Source: Owenia fusiformis
Lineage: Eukaryota; Annelida; Polychaeta; Sabellida; Oweniidae
Direction of reading: 5' to 3'
DNA length: 64,000 bases
Assembly (NCBI GenBank): GCA_903813345.2
Contig: CAIIXF020000010.1
Coordinates: forward strand, 3,649,169-3,713,168
Positions 509 through 29,795 of the stretch are shown one piece after another. Under the pieces are notes generated by a model, which saw only the letters and a list, made by a program, of their open reading frames with translations, did not search any database and was not told where the DNA came from. How positions within the stretch are numbered: position 1 is the stretch's first letter; the number at the start of each line of letters is the position of its first letter. The position numbers and the translations under genes were made by a program.

Positions 509-3500
509 GTAAGGTAGTTTAAATTCAAAAAGTGAATTATTGTAAAGATTTCTAACTTTATCCTCCAATGTCCTTATTAGAAAATCTTGTTTACTGGCGT
601 TTCCTCCACTTGAAACTAGCATTTTGTTTCGATTTCATTTGAACGTGTTTCAAATGCCCAACGTACACATTTGAACCTTTTTTGTGTAACATCGAAAATA
701 TGATAGACAAATCCATAAAACACTTATCACCACTGCGGTAAGATAATTAAACCTTATTTAGACATTTAAAACAGTACCAATACGATCTACTATATATCAG
801 TTCATTTCTAAAATAACGTACAACACGTCTCTTAGTCTACTCCAATTTCTAAAGTAATTAAAACTACCCTGAAGACCTGACGAATGCCTGGAACAAACAC
901 GTGCAATTTCCCTTGTGAAATTATATTAGTCAAATATACATGTAGATATAACAGATATCAGATATACTAGCAATTGATATATACTATATTTAGTCAAATT
1001 GTCAATATAAATTGCTATCCGATCTCACATGATGATTGATTGATATGATATGATATGACTAGAATAGTTTTTCTCGTTGTAAAGTTACACGAACGGAATT
1101 AAATAGTTTGGAAAAGACCGGTTGCACACTGACAGATCACTGAGACACTGACAACTTGTATGGTATTACATTTAAACTATCCCAATTAAAGTTAAATTTT
1201 GAAGATTTTAACCAAGAACGTAGAAATTGAATCATTTCTCGAATCGCTGCCAAGATTCTGTAGGTAATGGTAAATATCTTTATAGTACCAAGCATAAGTT
1301 TTGATGAAAACTGGTGATCAAAAAACAAATCTAGAGTCAAGTCTGCCAAAAGAATATGTGTATTTGAAACCTACACATAACTGAGCTCATATAGTACAGA
1401 AGTCGCACGAGAGTCAATTTTAACTTTGAAGGTGTACATTTAAAAGTTGTTATTTTCATATTTTATTGAAAAAAATTCCAGCATGGTCATCTTTTTCTCA
1501 ATGAACGTTTATAAGCTTGCAGCGATTGAAAATGATTTATTCTATCTATTACAATTTGTCAATTTCGAGGTTCTATAATACTCATCAGCTGACTTTTTAG
1601 AAAGGTAAATGATAGGTTTATAAACATACATGTACATGGAAATAAAACAGTCAAGACATGCCACCCACTTGCTGCTGATGTACTCTTTCAGTTGGGGCAA
1701 ACTGCCCTTCATACCGCAGCAAAGGTCGGTGCAGTGGCTGCTATTGAGGAACTCCTAAAGACATCCATTAAGAAAGATGAGCCTGATTTGGTAACCGAAA
1801 TTACCCTTATCATTTGCTTTTTCATTTAAAGGTCTATTATATTTAACTTTAAGGAATTCGGTATCTTACAAAATAAAAATAATTTTAAGAATTCATCAAG
1901 AACATTGACATTATATTCAAGGCATCAATATGATGAATTTGATCTGCATTGACTGATTAATAGCTCATATTATTTCTTTCTAGGAAGGAAAGACTGCATT
2001 GCACCTCGCGGCAGAATGTGGCGACTCACACGCTGTTGACGTACTCCTTGCTTCAAAGTTAAACCCAAATTGCATAACATCTGTAAGCCATTTATTCCTA
2101 ATATCTTGTTTATTCATCTCATATTTAAAAAGAATCTATGTCAAATTGAAAATTGTTTATATGGCGTGCACGGACCTGGGGACAATTCGGGAAATGCGGG
2201 CTTATCTCAGCTTTGAACGTTAATCTCTGCCTTATTTAAAAAGCCAACTATGTGTTTTACATATCATTTTGAAGTATTTTTTATTCGCATTTCAATGAAA
2301 TTATTTTTCCTGCAAAATTTTGATGGGATCCAACACATTTTTAAAGTTAAATATACTCCGACATCGTCAAATACGCTGTAAGACGTAACACTTTACGCTT
2401 ACAGTGCTCGTTGAAATTGAGATAACTTTTGAAATAATGATCAAAATCCCACTTAAATTTTACAATTTATTCAATGGAACATTTGCATTTATGACGTCAC
2501 AATTGCTTAACGGCTACATTCCAAATTATCTTATACGAACGCTTTTAAAATTTTCAAAATTGTGTAAGGTTTTGAAGGCGAATGGGACGAGCAATAAGTT
2601 TACCTTCATTTAACCTTCTAATTTAGGTCTGATTTGAAAGAAAATTTAACTGCACAATATTGTCATGGAGAAATTTACAAAACAATAACCGGTTTGTTTA
2701 TTTTGCAAATAATATCAAAATAAGAGCTGGTTTTCGAGACTTGAAAAAATGTGACGCATCGATTTTTTACCACATATTCCATACATATCAATTTTTACTA
2801 ACGCCCCAAGTGGATTTCTTGACCGTTTTTCAAAATTCAAAAACATTTTAGAAATATTGTCCTCGAGATCTTTCTACCCTGTAAATTTTGTAATGATTAG
2901 ATAAGGATAAAGTATTTTATTTTTAGGTTGACTAAACTTGTAAAAAATGTGACGCTTGTCGTTTTTGACGTTGTAAGGCTGTTTGCGCCCTATACTGCTC
3001 ATTGTTTTTTTTTTTTTTTTTGACGCCATAATGTTACGCTAATTGTCCCCAGTTTCGTGCGACGTGTATTAATCCTTTACTAATTGATCATGAATAATTA
3101 AGCTTTTAACAAGATCAACCAGATTTTCAAAAATCATAATAGACTAGTTAACGTTAACGTTATTGACCGATGTGTGCCGCACACATTCCCCCCCCTGTAA
3201 AAAGTATGGGTATTCATAGCGATTTAAACAAAATGGCTGCAATGTTTCTCCAGCATTTTTACAAGAAGTCTTCAAAGTAATGCAGCAACTCAATGTAAAA
3301 TATTGGTAGAGATGGGACATATGACGTGTTTCACGAAGTTTGTACTTTTAGAATGTAGAATCTCCAAAATGTAATGTAATCTTGCTTTCATAGAAAATGA
3401 TGACCCCACTCCACTTGGCAGCCATGAAGGGCCATACTGATGTTTGCGCAGCTCTTCTCAAGCGTGGTGCTGATGCAGATGCCAAAAACTATGTAAGTAT

Positions 3501-6500
3501 ATAATGTAAAAATTTGAAAAACAAAAACAAAAAAGGTTCATATACTCAAGGGGCGAGGAGGAAAATTCTCAATAAATGGTGTATAGTTGGTTTGGCAGCA
3601 TTTTTAGTTAGGGGAGAGTCTTGGATGAAACTTCCACCTAGGTGATAGCTTTACAGAGTGGTAGGAAGTTCTTATTTTTGAAGAGTTAGCCCCCCACCCC
3701 CCAAAAACACCCCACCCGGGGGAAAAAATGGTTCACACTAAATAACCTTAGATATTTTGATGTTTGTAAGTGACATACATAGATATTATATATATGATTC
3801 ATTTGCAGTATAATTGATGCTGATTGCTCCTAAGGAAATTGAATATTAGTACAAAGTGTGTACCCCAGGGGGCAAATTCGTGACTCATTTTCTTACTATT
3901 TTGATCCTAACTTTTCAATTAGACACTGTACGAGGTTGAAAAAATTCATGGGAAGTGCCCAATAGCAGGGTTAGTAAGCCTGAAAGATGCAAAGCCATTG
4001 ATAAGGTAGGAGCTGAGAAAAAAATTGTTGATTTTTCGAAAAATTTGACATTTTTGACAGTTGGATTTTGTGTATGACTATAGCTGACCCCTATAGTTTC
4101 TAGATCCATCCCTCTATAATGATATTTATGGTTTTATAGTGTGAAACTAAGATGTAAAACATAATTTAGATGGGTTTTAAGGAAGTTGAAGGTTTTAAAC
4201 AAGTCCAAAATTTGAAAAATTGTAAATATAAGGTTTCAAATTTACATATACCAGGTATAGCCATGGCTGACCCCTATAGTTTCTAGATCCATCCCTCTAT
4301 GATGATATTTATGGTTTTGCCATGTGGAACTAATATGTAAAACACAATTTAGATGGGTTTTAAGAAAGTTTAAGGTTTTAAACAATACAAAATTTGAAAA
4401 ATTGTGAATATAAGGTTTTAAATTTACGAATTTCAGGTATAGCCACGGCTGACCCTTATGGTTTTTACATCCATACCTCTATGATTAAATATACAGTTTT
4501 AGAGTGCGGGACTAAGATTTAACATATCCAAAATGAATTTTAAGGAAGTTTTAGGTTTTAAACAAGTCCGTAATTTGAAGAATTGTAAATGTTAGGTTTC
4601 AATTTTATGAATTTCAGGTATAGCCAAAGATGACCCTTATGGTTTTTACATCTATACCTCAGGGATGAAATATATAGTTTTAAGAGTATTTAACTAAAAT
4701 GTAAAAGATACCTAAGATGAGTTTGAAGGAAGTTCAAAGTTTTAAACAAGTGCAGAATTTGAAAAATTGATCTCAAAATTGGTCTCAAATTCATGTTATT
4801 CAGGTACAGCCTTGAATGAGCCCTGATAATTGAAGGTTATGAGCATAATAGTTTCAACTATGACATCATAGCTTAGAGACCAGGTGTAGAATATATACCT
4901 GTTGCAGCAGTTAGTCTGCTGCATATAGATGGAGTGAAAAGTCGTGAACTACAGTAAAATCTCTCTAATCTGAATGCTACTGGTATTTGGACCAGCTAAA
5001 AGCATTCTAATTAGGAGTTTTGAGGTTTTTCCATCTACAATACAAGTTCTGGATTTTGAAGAAATATGAATGCATTCTCAATGAAAAATATTAATAATAT
5101 TTATACTGACCACATAAAAAGCATTCCAAAATCCAATTCAAAAGTTTTGATATCATAACAATTCAGTGTGAAACTGACAATATTTGAGCAATTTTGTAAG
5201 AAATATGTGATATTTGGTAAAAAGAGTTCAAGTTAGACAGGTTAATTTTTCAAATATGAGTGTTCACTGTTCGAAGTAAGGGGTATTCAGATTTCAAGTT
5301 TTTTTTTAACATAGGAGTCAATGGGAGGAAAAATTGGACTTGGAAAAGTGTTCAGATTGGTTGGTGTTCAGATTAGTCAGGTGTTGGGATGATTGGTAGG
5401 TATTCACAATAGTCAGATGTTGGGATATACAGGTTTCACTGATGATATATCATTTATACAAGATGATGAACTAGAACTACTGTACTAGGTGCATTTGATA
5501 ATTTTTACCACAATGTTAATACTATGTCAGGAAAAGAAAGCACCCATGACACTTTGCTTGTATAACTTGAAAATCAACAACACTTTAAGATTTGATAAAG
5601 GTGTCTACCAAATGAGTAATCCACATTAATTCAAATACAAGCACTTGGCATGCTATTCCCTATGATGCTATTTATAGATTTTTAGTCAATGTTATTGATC
5701 AGCTTATTGGTTTCATTACTTTCTCTAGAATCTAAAATTGACCTTGGGTTTATGAGAGTAGTAAATTGGAATGCAGTTATATGGAGTATTGAATTGGCTG
5801 GAATTGGACACACGTTGACTAGCTATGTGTGAGTAAACTATGATCTTATATGGATACAAACAGTTCGTTTGACAATGATCATCTATCTTATCTGTAAAAT
5901 CAGAACTTAAAAAGGGGTTTGAAATGGAAATCGATGAAACCATACCACAAATTGATAAAACTTTCATGATCGATGCAATGGCTATGACAAAAGGAAAATT
6001 AAGATTAACTTATATGTTGAAATTTGGAGAGTTTTCGAAAGCTATATTTGACTACTCCATCAAATCTAGTAAAGGAGCCCAAAGAATAGATTTCATATTA
6101 GACTCCTAGTAGTCTCCATCAGTAAAGGATTCTGAAAGAATGCGAAGAATGTATGCTTCCCCTACTGAACTTTAATCCAAAGAAGAAATTACACCATTAC
6201 CTAAAAACATGAATACCTTTTGGCCAAGTCATATTATACAAATTTTCAAAGATTACAAAGAAATTTAATAAAGCAGCATTCTAAAAGTGTGCCAAATGTC
6301 AAGATTGTTAAAAGTGGAACTATTGGAAAGAACTCAAATATCTGTGAAAATGATAACTGAAATCCCCTGTTAAATTCCACTCTTGAAGAGGCTGATTTTA
6401 AACTTATTCACTCTGTTTTACATATAGCAGGAGAACATGTGGGACTTCAGTAATTTGCATCAAATGACACTGATTTTCTAATTTTATGACTATCATTTCA

Positions 6501-9500
6501 ATAAATGTAAAAAATTCTTCAACTGCTAGAAAATGTCATCTGCAAAGTCAGTATGTAAACATTTTCTACAATGTCTGTTTGTTTGAAACATATTGATCAT
6601 ATATATCATCATATATACTTTTTTGATCTACATGAAGATTTTAGTGTGACAAGACCCTTTTATCCTGGAGTTCCTAATCTCATTGCACTAACGGGAGTTT
6701 CTAGGCCCAGCAGGGTATGATCCTTATAATCCTTATTTTCCCAAATAATTACTGTTGCCTGATGACAAGTTGTTTTATTGGGAGTGTAGTGATTATAATT
6801 TGATAATTTATAATAATATTTTGTATTAGGAGATGATCATTGCTTAATTACTGTATGGGCATAATAAAATAGAGAGAAATCATGTTTCTTTTAATTAACC
6901 ATGTCTTTATGTATTTTGACAATGTAGAACATTACATCGAACATGTTGATGTGAAAAAGTAAAAATGCTATATCACATAATAAATATCATCAAATAATAA
7001 TTAATTAGTTATAATCCATTTAATCAATCAATTACTACACTGTATACGATATCCCTAAGAGCAGTTACACTTTAGGGGGGGGGGGGATTTATTAACCTCT
7101 CACCCCCTTAGGAACTCTAGGGTAAGGTCCTCAACTCTAATGATCTTTCTTTTAACAATACTTGTAACATGGATCAAACCTGACCACAATATTTTCAACA
7201 TCTAATTTCTAAGCTAAAAAAGTCATACATTCAAAAAGAGAGACAGCCAAGGCAATACCTGAAATCGTAAAGGAGGACTGAAAGTATCGCAACAGATTTA
7301 GGACAGTTACATGTTTGATTTTTGCTATTTTCTGGGGATTTGAGGAGGTGCATATGTTAGGCAAATGCATTACCTCCAGGAAAAGCACTCAAAGAGATGA
7401 TAAAATAATTTCTATTTGAGACAGGGTGCAAACAACCCACCCACATGCATCAATATGTTGTGTTTTGACACACAGTTAACCCCTTTAAAGAAATAATGCA
7501 TTCCATCAGGGGTTTAAAAGATATCAAATATGGGTGACCAAAATTAAGCTGAAAGTAATGGAGCACATGAGTTTTCCCTTTGGGAAAATAACAGGAAAAT
7601 ATTGTTTTCTGCTTTATCTAAAAGGAATTTATTATTCCTTTTTATGGGTTAACTATGTCTCAAAACGCAACATATTGATGCAACAAAAATTGAAAAAGCA
7701 GGGGTAAAGGGCTTGAAAATCAGGACAACATTTCCGAAAAAACATGTGGGTGGATTGTTTGCACCTTCGCTGTCTCAAAGTCCAAACTATTTTATCATCT
7801 CTAAGAGTTCTTTTCCCGTAGGTAATGCAATGGCCTATCATATGCACCTGCTTAAATCCTCAGGAAACAGACAAAATCTAACATATGACTGTCTGAAATA
7901 TGTTGCGATACTTTCCGTGCTCCTTTGAGACCTGATATTTCTCAATTTTTCAAACATTGCACTACTTGTTAAAATTCTTAAACTTCCTTAAAATTCATCT
8001 TCGGTATGTTTTACTTCTTAGTTTCACACTCTAAAAATATATGTTTCATCATAGAGGTATGGATGATTTTGGACTTGTTTAAAATCTTTAACTTCCTTAA
8101 AACCCATCTAAATTATGTTCTACATCTTTAGTTCCATACTTCAAAACCATAAATCTCCAAAGAGGGATGGATTTAGAAACTATAGGGGTCAGCCATGGCT
8201 ATACCTGGAATTTGTAAATTTGAAACCTTATATTTACAATTGTTCAAATTTTGGACTTGTTTAAAACCTTTAACTTCCTTAAAACCCATCTAAACTATGT
8301 TTTACATCTTAGTTCCACACTATAAAACCATACATATCATCATAGAGGGATGGATCTAGAACCTATAGGGGTCAGCCATGGTTATACCTGGAATTCGTAA
8401 ATTTAAAACCTTATATTTACAATTTTTCAAATTTTGGACTTGTTTAAAACCTTTAACTTCCTTAAAACCCATCTAAATTATGTTTTACATCTTAGTTCCA
8501 CACTATAAAACCATAAATATCATCATAGAGGGATGGATCTAGAAACTATAGGGGTCAGCCATGGCTATACCTGTAATTCGTAAATTTGAAACCTTATATT
8601 TACAATTTTTCAAATTTTGGACTTGTTTTAAACCTCCAACTTCCTTAAAACCCATCTAAATTATGTTTTACATCTTAGTTCCACACTATAAAACCATAAA
8701 TATCATTATAGAGGGATGGATCTAGAACCTATAGGGGTCAGCCATGGTTATACCTGGAATTCGTAAATTTGAAACCTTATATTTACATTTTTTCAAATTT
8801 TGGACTTGTTTAAAACCTTTAACTTCCTTAAAACCCATCTAAATTATGTTTTACATCTTAGTTCCACACTATAAAACCATAAATATCATTATAGAGGGAA
8901 GGATCAAGAAATTATAAGGGTCAGCTATAGTCATACACAAAATCCAGCTGTCAAAAATGTCAAATTTTTCCAAAAATCAACAATTTTTTCTCAGCTCCTA
9001 CCTCTTCCATGGCCTTGCACCTTTCAGGGTTACTAACCCTGCTATTGGGCACTTTACATGAATTTTTCCAACCTCTTACAGTGTCTAATTGAAAAGTTAG
9101 AATCAAAATAGTAAGAAAATGAGTCACGAATTTGCCCCCTGGGGTACATACTTTGTACTAATTTTCAAATTCTTTAGGAGTAATCAGCATCAATTATACT
9201 GCAAGTGATTCATATATATAATATCTATGTATGTCACTTACAAACATCAAAATATCTAAGGTTATTTAGTGTGAACAATTTTTTCCCCCGGGTGGGGTGT
9301 TTTTGGGGGGTGGGGGGCTAACTCATCAAAAAAAAGAACTTCCTACCACTCTGTGAAGTTATCACCTAGGTGGAAGTTTCATCCAAGACTCTCCCCTAAC
9401 TGAAAATGCTGCCAAACCAACTATACACCATTTATTGAGAATTTTCCTCCCCGCCCCTAGAGTAATACTGTACATACGCTTTTGTTTGCTTCATAACTAT

Positions 9501-16039: not shown

Positions 16040-19000
16040 AATTATTAGACTCCAGATGAAATCTGGAGTCTATTGTTTTCGTCAGTTTTCTTATTCTTCT
16101 TATTAGACTCCAGATTGAAAATCTGGAGTCTATTGTTTTCGTCAGTTTTCTTATTATTATTCTTCTTATTATTATTCTAACCCAGTTTTCTCAATAACCA
16201 TAAGGTCTTCAGTAAAGTCAATCATTTGGTCAATTTAGGTTCAGAATCTAGTTCTCTGGAAATTGGGTCAAAATTTTATCTAGGTCAAAGGTCAAGAACT
16301 AGGTCAAATCCAGTACTTCGTCACTTTTTTCGATTTTCTCGGTCGTCCTTCAATATTTTCGATCCGGGTTTTTTTCATTGTGTTCCTTATAAAAAAGTAG
16401 GAAAGCTAGGGTCGATTTAGTTTTTTGATATCTCAAACCGATTTCGAGATATCAGTGTCCGAAAGCGAGGTCCAAAAAAAAGTTCTCCGAATCAAATGTC
16501 CAGGATATTAGTCTTATAGGAAATTTTCTCAGGATTCTGAATCTGCAAACCAAATTTCGATCAGACTACCGGTTCGGAAGTTATGGCGTTTTGAAAACTC
16601 AAAAATCGCTAAATTTGGTGCCCATGTTAAGTCAATGGGAAAAAATATTTTTTTGAAGTGAAAAATACGGAATATAGACTGAGTTCAGCTTCATATAATC
16701 AAAGCCTTTAAAAGAAGGGGACCTCAAAAGCCATCTAGCTTCAAAATTTGGACACCGAAATGCCTAGGTCAAAATCTAGGTCAAATTCATAGGTTTTCCT
16801 TATTTTTTCGATTCTGACACTACACTTTAATTATATTCTTCGAAATTTTGTATACATGTAGCCAAGAATATGCTAATAGTGTTAGCCTTTTGCCGTCAGA
16901 AAGTATTTTGACCCACTTTTGAGATATGGTGTCCGAAAAGTAGGTCAAAATAAAAAGTTCTCCAAATTTAATATATGAGTTATGAATTAAGAAAGGAATT
17001 TTGTCAGGAATCCGAATCTGCAAATCAAATTTCGATCCGACTTCCGGTTCGGAAGTTATGGCGTGTCCGAAAAGTAGGTCAAAATAAAAAATCTCCAAAT
17101 TTAACGTATGAGTTATGAATTAGGGGTAGAATTTTGTCAGAAATCTGAATATGCAAACCAAATTTCGATCCGACTTCCGGTTCGGAAATTATGGCGTTTT
17201 GAAATTTCGAGAAAAACGATCTGATGGTATCCTGATAAAAAGTCAAGAGTAGAGAAGAAAATATTGAAAAATTCATCCATCCTTCCTATCTCATCCTATC
17301 CTTCCTATCTATCCTTCCTTTGTATCTTTTCCTTCCTATCCTTCCTATCCTATCCTATCCTATCTTCCTATTCTATTCTATCCTATCCTTCTTTCTTATT
17401 CTATCCTATCGTTCTTTCCTATTCTATCCTATCCTACCTTCCTATTTTATTTATCCATCTTTTTCTGGATGACTCAGCTTATTCTGGATGACTCGGCTTA
17501 TTCTAGATGACTCGGCTAAAAAAAGTCTAGATCTGGAGTCTGAAATTGAACTCGTTCAATTTCCAAAATCTAGTTATTATTCTATCCCAGTTTTCTCAAT
17601 AACCATAAGGTCTTCAGTAAAGTCAATCATTTGGTCAATTTAGGTTCAGTATCTAGTTCTCTGGAAATTGGGTCAAATTTTTATCTAGGTCAAAGGTCAA
17701 GATCTAGGTCAAATCCAGTACTTTGTCACTTTTTTCGATTTTCTCGGTCATCCTTCAATATTTTTGATCCGGGTTTTTTTCATTGTGTTCCTTATAAAAA
17801 AGGAGGAAACCTAGGGTCGATTTAGTTTTTTGATATCTCAAACCGATTTCGAGATATCAGTGTCCGAAAACGAGGTCCAAAAAAAAGTTCTCCGAATCAA
17901 ATGTCCAGGATATTAGTCTTATAGGAAATTTTCTCAGAATTCCGAATCTGAAAACGAAATTTCGATCGGACTTCCAGTTCGGAAGTTATGGCGTTTTGAA
18001 AACTCAAAAATCGCTAAATTTGGTGCCCATGTTAAGTCAATGGGAAAAAATATTTTTTTGAAGTGAAAAATACGGAATAAAGACTGAGTTCAGCTTCATA
18101 TAATCAAAGCCTTTAAAAGAAGGAGACCTCAAAAGCCATCTAGCTTCAAAATTTGGACACCGAAATGCCTAGGCCAAAATCTAGGTCAAATTCATAGGTT
18201 TTCCTTATTTTTTCGATTCTGACACTACACTTTAATTATATTCTTCGAAATTGTGTATACATGTAGCCAAGAATATGCTAATAGTGTTAGCCTTTTGCCG
18301 TCAGAAAGTATTTTGACCCACCTTTGAGATATGGTGTCCGAAAAGTAGGTCAAAATAAAAAGTTCTCCAAATTGAATATATGAGTTATGAATTAAAGGTA
18401 GAATTCTGTCAGGAATCCGAATCTGCAAACCAAATGTCGATCCGACTTCCGGTTCGGAAGTTATGGCGTGTCCGAAAACTAGGTCAAAATCAAAAATCTC
18501 CAAATTTAACGTATGAGTTATGAATTAGGGGTAGAATTTTGTCAGGAATCCGAATCTGCAAATCAAATTTCGATCCGACTACCGGTTCGGAAGTGATAGC
18601 GTTTTAAAATTTCGAGAAAAATCGATCTGATGGTATCCTGATAGAAAGTCAAGAGTAGAGAAGAAAATATTGAAAAATTCATCCATCCTTCCTATCTCAT
18701 CCTACCCTTTCCTTCCTATCTATCCTTCCTTCATATCTTTTCCTTCCTATCCTTCCTATCCTATCCTATCCTTTCTTCCTATTCTATTCTATCCTATCCT
18801 TCTTTCTTATTCTATCCTATCATTCTTTCCTATTCTATCCTATCCTACCTTCCTATTTTATTTATCCATCTCTTTCTAGATGACTCAGCTTATTCTGGAT
18901 GACTCGGCTTATTCTGGATGACTCGGCTAAAAAAAGTCTAGATCTGGAGTCTGAAATTGAACTTCGTTCAATTTCCAAAATCTAGTTATTCTTTTTATTA

Positions 19001-20860
19001 TTCTTTTTATTCTTATTCTAACCCAGTTTTCTCAATAACCATAAGGTTTTTAGTAAAGTCAGTCATTTGGTCAATTTAGGTCCAGAATCTAGTTCCTTGG
19101 AAATTGGGTCAAATTTTTATCTAGGTCAAAGGTCAAGAACTAGGTCAAATCCAGTACTTTGTCACTTTTTTCGATTTTCTCGGTCGTCCTTCAATATTTT
19201 TGATCCGGGTTTTTTTCATTGTGTTCCTTATAAAAAAGTAGGAAAGCTAGGGTCGATTTAGTTTTTTGATATCTCAAATCGATTTCGAGATATCAGTGTC
19301 CGAAAACGAGGTCCAAAAAAAAGTTCTCCGAATCAAATGTCCAGGATATTAGTCTTATAGGAAATTTTCTCAGGATTCTGAATCTGAAAATTGAATTCGG
19401 ATCAGACTTCCGGTTCGGAAGTTATGCCGTTTTGAAAGCTCAAAAATCGCTAAATTTGGTGCCCATGTTAAGTCAATGGGAAAAAAGATTTTTTTGAAGT
19501 GGAAAATACGAAATATAGACTGAGTTCAGCTAAATATAATGAAAGCTTTTAAAAGAATGGGACCTTAAAAGCCATCTAGCTTCAAAATTGGGACACCAAA
19601 ATGCATAGGTCAAAATCTAGGTCAAATTCAAAGTTTTTTCTTATTTTTGCTATTCTGACGCTACAGATTAATTATATTCTTCGAAATTTTGTATGCATGT
19701 AGCCAAGAGTGTACTAATAGTGTAAGCCTTTTGCCGTCAGAAAGTATTTTGCCCCACTTTTGAGATATGGTGTCCGAAAAGTAAGTAAAAATAAAGAATT
19801 CTCCAAATTTAACGTGTGAGTTATGAACTAAGTATAGAATTTTTGTCAGGAATCCGAATCTGCAAACCAAATTTCGATCTGACATCTAGTTCGGAAGTTA
19901 TGACATTTTGAAAGCTCAAAAATCGCTAAATTTGGTGCCCCATGTTATGTCAATGGGAAAAAAGATTTTTTTGAAGTGTAAAATACGAGATATAGACTAA
20001 GTACAGCTTAAAATAATGAAAGCCTATGAAAGAAGGGAACCTCGAAGGCTACCTAACTTCAAAATTTGGACACCAAAATCCCTAGGTCAAAATCTAGGTC
20101 AAATTCATAGTTTATCCTTATTTTTGCGATTCAGACACTACACTTTAATTATATTCCTCGAAATTGTGTATACATGTAGCCAAGAGTGTGCTAATAGCGT
20201 TAGCCTTTTGCAGTCAGAAAGTATTTTGACCCACTTTTGAGATACGGTGTCCGAAAAGTAGGTCAAAATAAAAAGTTCTCCAAATTTAACGTTTGAATCA
20301 TGAATTAATAATAGAATTTTCTCAGAAATCCGAATCTGCAAACCAAATTTCGATTCGACTTCTGGTTCCGAAGTTATGGCGTGTCCGAAAAGTAGGTCAA
20401 AATAAAAATTCGCCAAATTTAATGTATGAGTTATGAATTAGGGGTAGAACTTTGTCAGGAATCCGAATCTGCAAATCAAATTTCGATCTGACTTCCGGTC
20501 CGGAAGTTATGGCGTTTTGAAATTTCAAGAAAAATCAATCTGATGGTATCCTGATAGAAAGTCGAGAGTAGAGAAGAAAATATTGAAAAATGCATCCATC
20601 CTTCCTTTCTGATCCTATCCTATCCTTCCTATATACCCTTGCTTTGTATCCTCTCCTTCCTATCCTTCCTATTCTATCCTTCTTTCCTATTCTATCCTAT
20701 CCTTCCTTCCTTTTTCATCCATCCATCCATCCATCTTTTGCTGGATGACTTAGCTTATTTTGGATGGCTTGGCTTATTCTGGATGACTCGGCTAAAAAAA
20801 AAGTCTAGATCTGGAGTCTGAAATTGAACTCGTTCAATTTCCAAAATCTAGTTATTAATT
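16040..20860 (+). repeat. Higher-order tandem repeat array, 3 units of ~1.4-1.8 kb
   Basis: Units begin near 16176, 17577 and 19013 (CCCAGTTTTCTCAATAACCA). Each ends with a pyrimidine-rich microsatellite, then TGGATGACTCGGCT and a terminal block GTCTAGATCTGGAGTCTGAA...CAATTTCCAAAATCTAG. Within each unit a ~140 bp module ending in CTTCCGGTTCGGAAGTTATG recurs three or more times. Unit 3 has an extra ~480 bp internal duplication. The left edge has two GACTCCAGAT...ATCTGGAGTC hairpins (16048, 16106). Short ORFs recur once per unit only because the DNA repeats. It lies between convergent genes. Confidence 0.85.
17273..17470 (+). repeat. Pyrimidine-rich microsatellite (CCTATCCTTCCT-type)
   Basis: Irregular CCTTCC/TATCC/TATTC tract in array unit 1. 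Equivalent tracts lie at about 18682-18870 and 20597-20745 in units 2 and 3. The long homopyrimidine strand could adopt triplex DNA; that is inference. Confidence 0.7.
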
Positions 20861-27200: not shown

Positions 27201-29795
27201 CAAAAATAAGAATACTTATTCACTGGCCAAGCATGTGATGTCAGTAAAAAGGCGAATTCAATTAGACATATTCATCGGCTGTGGCGTTATGTAAAGTTTC
27301 ATAGAGGCTATAAATAGTTCCGAGTGTAATACTCTCTAAATGTGTTAACCATCTTCATAAACTTTTAAATTTTTACAAATAAACCAGAGGACGCAGGACT
27401 TATTATTAGCATATTTCGGGCGTCCGAAAAAATGAGACACGTTCAAGTATTTTCTCGGAAACTGATGAACCAAATTCACTGAAAATTTGTACAAAGTACT
27501 CTTAGAGCATCATCGGCAAGGTGTGCAAATATAATAAAGATCGAGTAAATACTCCACAAAACTAAGAAATAAAAAAAGCATTTGAAAATTCCTCATTCCG
27601 GAGCTCTGCGATTAGATCTCTAGCGAATGTATCAGCTATCAGTGATAGCATCTGTTAATCATTTAAAATAGCTTGTCTGTGTGTCATGTCTACTTAATTC
27701 GTTTCATTCTTCTCAAATATCCAAAGTCCGTTCATTCTAAAAAGTTCTTTGGAGGTGTTATTGTTAGAATAATTACAGAAAAGTATTTTGCTTGGAAATG
27801 GATTAATACGTGACTTTTACATTGATATTGGTTATTTTGACATACTGTCTTTAATTAAAAAAGCACACATAATATGAGGCCAATCTCTTACAAATTCAGA
27901 GCAATCGGCAGAAGATATCCTTATGTGTTTTAAGATTTCAAAAAAATTTGGCTTATTTGTTGAGAAATTACATGTCGAATTGCTTCTCATTTTTGGTACA
28001 AATGCTATGAAGTTCTCATTGCGTTGCTCCGTTATGGGATATTATGACATACTATCTTGATTTTCTTAGTTTTCAGATAACATTTACCTGATCTTTGTTG
28101 TATTTTTGTACCTTGCTAGCGATACACTTGGGCCACTTTGTACCAATCTTAAGTAAATTTGATTCATCAGATACCGGGAAAATAATTGTCCAAAAGTGTC
28201 TCATTTTTTGGGACACCTGATATATCCAAGTAAACCCTACCTCCGAGGCCACCGTAGAGAACAATTAAGGCGTCAACATTCGGTGAAAAGGTGCTAGCAA
28301 AGAACGACGCTGCTGCCAACAGGCTACCTGCTATTGAAACTGCTCTACATCCAAATTTGTTAGCTAACCCCCCGGCTATTGGACCTATAATAAACAATAA
28401 CTAAATGTATTAACATATGGCTGAAATAGGGCAAAAACTGTATCTTGATTCATACACCTGAACAATATATTAATCGATGTAATTTTGAAATGATGAAGTG
28501 AAGAAATTGTGAAATTCTGAAATCTTAAACATAGATATTAAATCTTGTTATTAGATATAGTGTAGGTAGAAGTATTTTGAACAAGTTGAAACGAAGGGAA
28601 ACCTCTTAATTTCATATCGCACATAGCATCTGATATTCTAAATCAATTTTAGGGCTGACGTTAGGCTGATGTTACATGATAAGCCCTACGTCATTATATT
28701 GAATCAAAATTGATTTTCATGAAAAAGTTGTCATTCAAACATATGACATATGACTATCGATTATATTTATGATATGTTCAAACTCATTCTCTGTCAATGT
28801 GTCCTTTATGGTACTCAATGTAGCAGCTATTAACATGTAAGCCATATGTCCAGTAATAGTAGATGCCCCCAATGTGTAAATTCCATATTCAATATTTAAA
28901 TACATACCATACAACGTAGCTTCCATTAATAAATTCAGATCATACATCTTTGAAATACCATTCAATATGCATGTAAATTGCATGTACTCACCTATAGTCT
29001 GATACATGACATTCAATGTGGCTGCTCCAGTATAGAAATTGCATGTACTCATCCATAGTCAGATATATGACATTCAATGCAGCTGCTCAAATTTGGAAAT
29101 TGCATGTACTCACCCATAGTAAGATAGATGTCATTCAATGTAGCTGCTCGAATATGGAAATTACATGTACTCACCTATAGTCAGATACATGTCATTCGAT
29201 TTAGCTGCTCCAATATTGAAATTGCATGTACTCACCCATAGTCTGATACATGTACATGCAATTCAATGTTGCTACTCCAATATGGAAATTGCATGTACTC
29301 ACCTATAGTCAGATACATGCCATTCAATGTAGCTGCCAGCAATATGTAAATTGCACTCACCCATAGTAAGATACATGCCATTCAATGTAGCTGCCTAATA
29401 TGGAAATTGCATGTACTTACCCATAGTCAGATACATGCCATTCAGTGTAGCTGCTCGAATATGAAAATTACAGGTTCTCACCCATAGTCAGATACATGCC
29501 ATTCAGTGTAGCTGCTCGAATATGAAAATTACAGGTTCTCACCCATAGTCAGATACATGCCATTCAGTGTTGATCCAACCCATGCAGTCTTTCCTTTGCT
29601 TTCTCTGTAGTAATCCAGGAATTCGAGGTAGAATATTCCAGCTGAGAAACATACCCCATCAACCAGTACGTTCATTATGAATGACGAGAACACTATCACC
29701 CAACCCCATCCACCATCAGGAGGAACGGGTGGGCCGATGGAATCATCTGTAGCTACTTCATCGTCATCATCGCTGCGCTGAATCTTGTCAGTCAT
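21129..29795 (-). CDS. SLC16-family (monocarboxylate-type) transporter, complete, 6 exons
   Basis: Plasma-membrane major-facilitator carrier. Family members move monocarboxylates, thyroid hormone, creatine or carnitine, so the substrate cannot be told here. CDS exons in order: 29795-29543, 28384-28241, 24676-23837, 22177-21908, 21800-21675, 21289-21129, every junction in phase 1; 597 residues. Hallmarks: [11 protein letters not shown] in TM1 (residues ~28-38), and [20 protein letters not shown] (TM5 region, ~150-170). A long hydrophilic loop (~215-390) separates the two six-helix halves. The second half has [10 protein letters not shown] and LGAPLAG(F), and a short basic C-tail. A noncoding acceptor at 29801 (tttgtttag) implies an upstream 5' UTR exon. 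The long central loop resembles MCT9/12/14-like members more than MCT1-4, but orthology is not established. Confidence 0.88.
21675..21800 (-). CDS. SLC16-like exon 5 (TM10-TM11 region)
   Basis: Acceptor cttttttcag, donor GTATGT. 126 nt, phase 1 to 1. Contains [15 protein letters not shown] and [10 protein letters not shown], both strongly SLC16-like. Confidence 0.9.
21908..22177 (-). CDS. SLC16-like exon 4 (TM7-TM10 region)
   Basis: Acceptor gtttttcag, donor GTAAGA. 270 nt, phase 1 to 1. Contains [28 protein letters not shown] and VFGLGIG. Confidence 0.9.
22232..22440. mobile_element. ~210 bp MITE, short relative of the 36.45 kb palindrome
   Basis: CACTTCCCCATAAGTTTAG at the left and CAAACTTATGGAGGGGTGTA at the right are inverted. 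They match the termini of the larger palindromic element at 36453-37308. Lies in an SLC16-like intron. Confidence 0.55.
22469..22855. mobile_element. ~390 bp inverted-repeat element
   Basis: Arms of ~65 bp: CACTGATCAGTATCAGGCGA, CGAAGGTAACGGCCGTCACC and ATGGCGGACGGGAAGT, repeated in inverse at the right end. A single diverged arm occurs again at about 38240-38302. Intronic, no coding potential. Confidence 0.7.
23837..24676 (-). CDS. SLC16-like exon 3 (TM5-TM7 and central loop)
   Basis: Acceptor gtttttcag, donor GTGAGC. 840 nt, phase 1 to 1. Holds the [10 protein letters not shown] motif, a ~175-residue charged loop with RRKKQQ at its start, and the TM7 start [12 protein letters not shown]. 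Confidence 0.9.
25702..26797. mobile_element. ~1.1 kb foldback element in SLC16-like intron
   Basis: Left arm ~25702-26105 and right arm ~26400-26797 are inverted copies. Shared blocks include ATATGGGCAA, TTTTCAAATA, AACAGAATTTGACT-type, TGCGCCATGTGTGTTGATAT and TTGGAGGATACAAATCATAT. There is a ~300 bp central loop. No transposase. Confidence 0.72.
27420..28222. mobile_element. ~0.8 kb mariner-like non-autonomous element
   Basis: Both ends carry AAAAAATGAGACAC followed by ~55 bp of similar sequence (TATTTTC.CGG...CTGATGAA.CAAATT.ACT) in inverted orientation, giving TIRs of ~70 bp. The GTCC(C) terminal context and flanking TA fit Tc1/mariner-type insertions. It stops ~18 bp from SLC16-like exon 2. 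No transposase ORF. Confidence 0.55.
28241..28384 (-). CDS. SLC16-like exon 2 (TM2-TM4 region)
   Basis: Acceptor tttattatag, donor GTAGGG. 144 nt, phase 1 to 1. Encodes [20 protein letters not shown] and ends LYGGLGG. Confidence 0.88.
28980..29542 (-). repeat. Tandem copies of the SLC16 exon-1 donor junction (~60 bp x 9)
   Basis: Nine ~56-70 bp units, read on the minus strand, each contain the exon-1 end (CTGAATGGCATGTATCTGAC), then TATGG|GTGAG or TATAG|GTGAG. Donor GT positions (plus coordinates) are 29480-29481, 29419-29420, 29359-29360, 29301-29302, 29234-29235, 29173-29174, 29112-29113 and 28990-28991. The copy at 29051-29052 has lost the GT. The true donor is 29541-29542. The two copies nearest the exon are almost identical to it and farther ones diverge. 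Confidence 0.85.
29543..29795 (-). CDS. SLC16-like exon 1 (start codon, TM1, start of TM2)
   Basis: ATG at 29795-29793, followed by an acidic N-terminus, then DGGWGW. Ends ...NGMYLTM plus one base before donor GTGAGA (phase 1). The last ~35 nt and this donor are copied nine times in the adjacent intron. Confidence 0.9.

Follow-up and report, generated by a model that had tools for sequence, protein, structure and literature searches.

A probable mirage-type minisatellite at the exon-1 edge of an SLC16/MCT-like gene of Owenia fusiformis

The end of coding exon 1 of an SLC16/MCT-like gene of Owenia fusiformis, together with its 5' splice site, was found to be copied in tandem nine times inside the following intron, as an earlier note on this DNA had proposed and as repeat analysis and a count of the donors bore out. 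We are fairly confident from sequence comparison that this array is a mirage-type minisatellite at the exon edge. A segment of about 61 bp spanning the 3' end of exon 1 and the 5' splice site would have undergone repeated short tandem duplication and unequal exchange, and selection on the protein would preserve the exon end as the copies in the intron drift. In splicing the exon-1 donor would be used for the most part, and the array would leave with intron 1. The array would have no dedicated function and is probably repeat growth without purpose; strong decoy donors within it may lead to a share of transcripts that are truncated and presumably unstable. In a sister gene there are signs that the true exon end is at times exchanged for one of the copies, and the mosaic exon end of that gene is the most interesting part of the case.

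The host gene and its exon-1 junction

The window, meaning the whole stretch of 64,000 nucleotides that was analysed (C10:3649169-3713168), was taken from an Owenia fusiformis assembly of 498 Mb in 525 contigs, and the host gene lies on its minus strand. The product of exon 1, exon 2 and the start of exon 3 matched solved MCT2/MCT1 with E values of 1.2e-36 to 4e-33 (phmmer), with MCT10 and MCT8 also among the matches. Against Pfam MFS_1 the exon-3 frame scored above the cut-off and exons 1-2 alone below it. By its relationship to solved MCTs the host is a predicted animal lactate-type (SLC16/monocarboxylate) transporter gene, and the SLC16-like host first named for this locus stands.

Exon 1 is 253 nt long (84 codons plus 1 nt) and ends in phase 1, and in five paralogues that were inspected the junction with intron 1 has the homologous position. 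Intron 1 runs from 28385 to 29542, and the array occupies about half of it. The positions of the coding features in the window are as follows.

29543..29795, minus strand: coding exon 1 of the SLC16/MCT-like gene (open frame; product matches solved MCTs)
29541..29542, minus strand: authentic 5' splice site, tgg/GTGAGAAC (predicted U1 duplex -9.3 kcal/mol)
28241..28384, minus strand: coding exon 2 (homology to the sister gene and to solved MCTs)

Anatomy of the array

TRF analysis of 28971-29570 gave a period of 61 with 9.8 copies and 85% matches. The repeat unit spans the exon-intron boundary, so that nine extra exon-1/intron-1 junctions stand beside the true one, with copy donors starting at 29481, 29420, 29360, 29302, 29235, 29174, 29113, 29052 and 28991 (copies 1-9). 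Copies 1-9 in the list below rest on the donor count and a frame check, with a comparison of the units added for copy 3.

28971..29570, minus strand: 61-bp tandem array covering the exon-1 end and half of intron 1 (TRF; repeat family D1)
29480..29511, minus strand: copy 1, exon-like 30 nt and GT
29419..29450, minus strand: copy 2, exon-like 30 nt and GT
29359..29390, minus strand: copy 3, exon-like 30 nt and GT (3' half and donor flank match the sister's real exon-1 end)
29301..29332, minus strand: copy 4, exon-like 30 nt and GT
29234..29271, minus strand: copy 5, exon-like 36 nt (6-nt insertion) and GT
29173..29204, minus strand: copy 6, exon-like 30 nt and GT
29112..29143, minus strand: copy 7, exon-like 30 nt and GT
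29051..29082, minus strand: copy 8, exon-like 30 nt, donor lost (AT at 29052)
28990..29021, minus strand: copy 9, exon-like 30 nt and GT
about 28869..28921, minus strand: decayed further copy beyond the array (nhmmer E 7.4e-5)

The splice signals of these copies are largely as first described. GT was counted at the donor of eight of the nine, AT standing at 29052, and the near-consensus context claimed for these donors is supported. AG precedes the exon-like segment in all nine copies, and in six it is present as GAGCAG. The exon-like segment has no stop in phase 1 in any copy and is 30 nt long in eight of them, so that the proposed 30-nt phase-1 segment holds for the open frame throughout but not for the length of the one copy with 36 nt. 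The exon end is indeed copied, but identity covers about the final 28 nt of coding sequence and not the roughly 35 nt that had been suggested.

Probable growth at the exon edge

The farther a copy lies from the exon, the less it resembles the exon unit (Spearman -0.98), the identities for copies 1-9 being 0.95, 0.85, 0.82, 0.84, 0.82, 0.82, 0.79, 0.75 and 0.74, and the claim that the copies nearest the exon are the most like it was thus confirmed. In copy 1, 58 of 61 positions are those of the exon unit. Copy 1 contains both the exon's CACTG and the exon's donor flank GTGAGAACC, and in copy 2 the CACTG is present while the donor flank differs and reads GTAAGTACATG. These two patterns, the fall in identity and the decayed outer copy (nhmmer score 11.0 vs a best of 4.4 among 200 shuffles) fit growth by duplication and exchange close to or right at the edge of the exon, in which the copies deeper in the intron would be the older ones.

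A dispersed or mobile repeat was considered and rejected: a dimer of the unit gave eight matches at E up to 10, and these fell in the window locus (six) or the sister gene (two). The 14-mer GCTACATTGAATGG has nine occurrences genome-wide (reversed control, one), and six of these lie in the loci of the window gene, the sister gene and a further SLC16-type match, L051, indicating that it does not belong to a dispersed family. L051 also has a separate 43-bp array carrying GCTACATTGAATGG, which we take as a coincidence.

A sister gene with a mosaic exon end

Searching the assembly with exon 1 gave 33 matches, itself included. The closest other match, the sister gene (L002), lies 91 kb away on the same strand with an 85% identical exon-1 protein, and at the same exon-1 junction it carries a diverged array (L002 1360-1788, periods 127 and 65). 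This homologous, differently diverged array argues against an assembly artefact in which the repeat was wrongly expanded, as does the difference of up to 26% between the copies and the exon unit. The locus is present once in the assembly and the copy number comes from one assembly alone; an artefact is nonetheless hardly credible, even if the exact number of the near-identical copies 1-2 could be wrong.

Window gene and sister differ with a dS of 0.41 over exons 1 and 2. Taken separately, codons 1-70 of exon 1 give 0.72 and exon 2 gives 0.22, and with values so unequal gene conversion between the two genes is possible.

The end of exon 1 in the sister was compared with each of the ten window units. 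At the columns which separate the window's exon unit from copy 3, it agrees with the exon unit at four of four upstream and with copy 3 at 10 of 11 downstream, where four of the 10 columns are one 4-nt gap and the last few align less surely. From GAATGG onward the sister's exon end matches copy 3 at 45/47 positions with no gap columns and the window exon unit at 40/46 with 5 gap columns; of the ten units none matches it better than copy 3, and the next one reaches 41/46 with 5 gap columns. On this alignment the sister's real exon end is a mosaic, exon-like in its 5' part and like window copy 3 in its 3' part and donor, and the exon end of one gene now corresponds to an intronic copy of the other. 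A mosaic of this kind implies that the true exon end takes part in exchange with the array. Two histories are compatible with this: after the two genes separated, edge units were added in the window gene, or the sister's exon end was exchanged with a copy and units were lost. Each of them requires exchange in which the coding end of the exon takes part. We give an even chance to the proposal that in the course of evolution intronic copies take the place of the last 10 or so codons of exon 1 and its donor, or that the old end is left in the intron, the exon end being a moving member of the array.

Copies as coding sequence

The earlier note had suggested that each copy could act as an in-frame microexon. 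Under this reading every copy would be a 30-nt phase-1 cassette exon that adds 10 residues within transmembrane helix 2 and gives rise to length-variable isoforms. AG, a length divisible by three and a frame without stops are found in all nine window copies and GT in eight, and copies 2-9, which lie at 92-521 nt from the exon-1 donor, leave room enough for an intron. However, N:S in the exon-like parts was near neutral when changes were counted on trees, being 15:7 on a tree from intron-like columns and 13:6 on a tree from all columns, against an expected 3.09:1 (binomial p 0.46 and 0.43, respectively). When eight copies (all but copy 5) were set directly against the present exon, the count was 13.5 N to 15.5 S, which resembles constraint. 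We take this excess of S as silent changes of earlier exon ends which were inherited by several copies and counted repeatedly, and the tree-based count was made because of this repeated counting of shared changes. The copies appear to evolve about neutrally as coding sequence, with no sign of the purifying selection expected of a microexon cassette.

Other features of the array also speak against microexons. The gaps from donor to next acceptor measure 28-31 nt, which is short for an animal intron and speaks against chaining, and ten extra residues within a membrane helix would probably break the fold. Among the seven intronic copies of the sister, three have no AG and two an in-frame TGA, leaving two usable. 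If any of the nine window copies were used as an alternative exon-1 donor, a stop is predicted at codon 89, so this use could give truncated products only. With near-neutral N:S, such short gaps and five of seven sister copies spoiled, the microexon claim is not supported as a working design; we hold cassette microexons to be very improbable, and a function of the array as isoform generator is unlikely.

Copies as donors

Seven of the nine window copies have a stronger predicted U1 duplex than the true donor (-11.5 to -12.0 vs -9.3 kcal/mol). One of the remaining two is equal to the true donor in U1 pairing, and in the other the donor is lost. Such strong intronic 5' splice sites could be decoy donors: by binding U1 they would reduce or adjust productive splicing, or they would affect the intron in some other way. 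The predicted stop at codon 89 after use of any copy agrees with this proposal, as does human IFI6, in which two downstream repeat units are described as serving as splice donors in passages of PMC4526556.

Conservation within the unit was also considered. The GTGAG columns carry two changes over the 18 units of both genes, and changes were as few in 2.6% of 20,000 random five-column sets; among 56 six-column windows, only the one over the donor and the one shifted from it by a single column were conserved to this degree. No other stretch of the unit is as conserved as the donor, which hints at selection on the donors but does not prove it, because the units were chosen by the donor motif, the decayed copy without a clear donor being excluded.

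Other observations argue against the decoy proposal. In the sister only two of seven copies are stronger than its own donor, and five have predicted duplexes of -7.1 to -7.6 kcal/mol; GTGAGT is present in all seven, with unfavourable preceding bases in five. At another SLC16 exon edge (L006, described below) three copies have lost the GT, and 30 of 33 SLC16 exon-1 edges are without a nearby copy, which indicates that there is no family-wide decoy role. On balance a decoy function is unlikely, though less so than cassette microexons. Whatever their role, one weaker true donor beside seven stronger decoys (as predicted) amounts to a natural experiment on 5' splice site choice.

Other exon edges

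A nearby copy of the edge was found at three of the 33 SLC16-type exon-1 donors (window, sister and L051), these donors having been chosen by rule as the strongest U1 pairing near the match end, with a few doubtful (L027, L045). Two of 39 exon-2/exon-3 edges in the fetched DNA also had one (the L005 exon-2 acceptor and the L006 exon-2 donor). For the 39 edges the yardstick was 200 shuffles, for all others 100 shuffles with a margin of 2 points; a fortieth exon-2/3 edge had too little flank and was left out.

At L051 (C5:37537400-37539300, donor at 300) there is one decayed downstream intronic copy of about 100 nt of exon and 10 nt of intron, with a score of 66 vs 38 in shuffles. At L005 (C10:29552500-29557400, gene-strand 1070-1225) the exon-2 acceptor and the first 27 nt of exon 2 are duplicated in tandem at an offset of 89 bp, with 67 nt aligned at 95.5%, and by its sequence this duplication can be classed as a recent 3'-splice-site mirage. 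At L006 (C4:3880500-3885200, gene-strand 3679-4001) the exon-2 donor of this further SLC16 paralogue borders an array of 82 bp x 3.9, and its three intronic copies have AT instead of GT at the donor. None of eight exon edges in the window, taken with approximate ends, had a nearby copy. An edge copy at L031 was dropped, as it scored one point above shuffles with a short query and was not above them with a longer one.

Taken together, 5 of 72 edges had a nearby copy (four events if the sisters share one), compared with 5 of 124 random intronic 90-mers drawn as controls from 31 of the same loci. An exon-edge hot spot is not supported by this comparison (Fisher p 0.50; p 0.47 after the sisters were merged into one, as was a repeated control locus). 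At these small numbers copies lie near exon edges about as frequently as elsewhere, and the arrays appear to be a side effect of short tandem duplications, which are frequent.

Other arrays in the genome and the window

Genome-wide, GGTGAGT repeated at 42-72 nt gave 533 + 514 overlapping matches, compared with 443 + 280 for the reversed pattern, so that such arrays are only mildly enriched. At least 11 arrays were counted by hand among the matches listed (C1), and five were fetched. The array of L012 (C1:4041500-4047000, 2297-3442) is 66/72 bp x 17, with a unit FNDINTYVTGVSMRPDQCNG ending at GTGAGTAC and open in frame. It adjoins a long open frame, and the 66/72-bp unit is open on both strands. 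The exon matched its own locus only (17/17 matches) and had no Pfam match, and L012 is either an exon-edge array or a coding repeat. The other four fetched arrays had no clear coding edge as judged by open frames alone.

Some further repeats were observed on the way. L013 (C1:13514500-13520500, 1899-4811) has a 67-bp x 43 array with a unit of CTCCCTACAG, six bases and GTGAGTATG, an arrangement that resembles an acceptor and donor pair. Within the window, arrays of 182 and 183 bp lie at 4083-4769 and 8066-8936, about 3.3 kb apart, and by eye their consensus units resemble mutual reverse complements. The stretches 16929-17517, 18334-18928 and 20247-20793 each combine a duplicated unit of 133 bp with an ATCCT-rich part and a repeat of 19 bp, and would form a larger repeated block.

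Discussion

Mirages are said to have been described in amphioxus Adh3 by Canestro in 2002. In passages of PMC3087553 and PMC3902484 they are presented as minisatellite-like tandem duplications of an intron-exon boundary, 5' or 3', with units of 10-72 and 150-160 bp, AG/GT in many but not all copies, and normal splicing by RT-PCR. The hosts named there are Adh3 and the globins BflGb6 and BflGb9 (PMC3087553), to which TnC and PGBD5 are added (PMC3902484). The former source also speaks of haplotype length differences, somatic instability and a proposed role as a source of new introns (PMC3087553).

The present array has, by its sequence, the anatomical features of this kind. As in the amphioxus mirages, the repeat unit spans the exon-intron boundary of a real coding gene, the boundary is conserved outside the array, and many copies keep their splice signals (GT in 8/9, AG in 9/9). 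In contrast to them, the Owenia fusiformis array probably belongs to another phylum and is common to two sister genes with a mosaic exon end. A homeobox search of the assembly gave 15 matches, 11 of which fall within C1 17.97-18.47 Mb; homeodomains were read for 10 of these 11, and their Lox5-like KLTGP and Lox2/Lox4-like flanks suggest a lophotrochozoan rather than a lancelet. A COX1 search of the assembly gave no match, which is no proof of absence. The differing arrays of the two sister genes speak indirectly for the length instability seen in amphioxus mirages. Cluster-internal units of BflGb6 are homogenised and boundary units are not, according to passages of PMC3087553, whereas here identity falls away from the exon. 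Our search of open-licence papers found no mirage outside amphioxus. The array had been called unusual; the kind already has a name, and in this genome three further SLC16 exon edges have duplications. The observation itself is true, and we regard it as a good example of a kind that has been described but is little known, here probably from a phylum in which it is new.

From its title, Turri et al. 1995 reportedly found that a tandem repeat at an exon end of IFI6 (6-16) supplies several donor sites. The present array is likewise a tandem repeat at an exon end with several candidate donors. Passages of PMC4526556 state that two repeat units of human IFI6 are used as donors, giving three mRNA species; in contrast, use of a copy here is predicted to truncate the protein. 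Tandem duplication is also described as adding splice signals with change of gene structure or intron gain (in part of PMC3443670), and human variable repeats at exon-intron boundaries as possibly forming new introns (in part of PMC2812944). Splice signals are added in both situations, but here an existing junction is spanned and an existing intron lengthened, and a new intron is not indicated at this array.

Mirages are described from amphioxus and have been proposed as material from which introns could be gained. A case in what is probably another phylum, along with further SLC16 edge duplications, suggests that they are a general by-product of frequent tandem duplication. The mosaic in the sister shows that a working exon boundary can trade sequence with intronic copies, a concrete, testable way in which exon ends and the strength of splice sites may change. 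If exon ends are indeed replaced in this way, it would be the reshuffling of junction copies that shapes donor strength and the coding tail, as on a 'conveyor' for exon ends in a lineage outside chordates.
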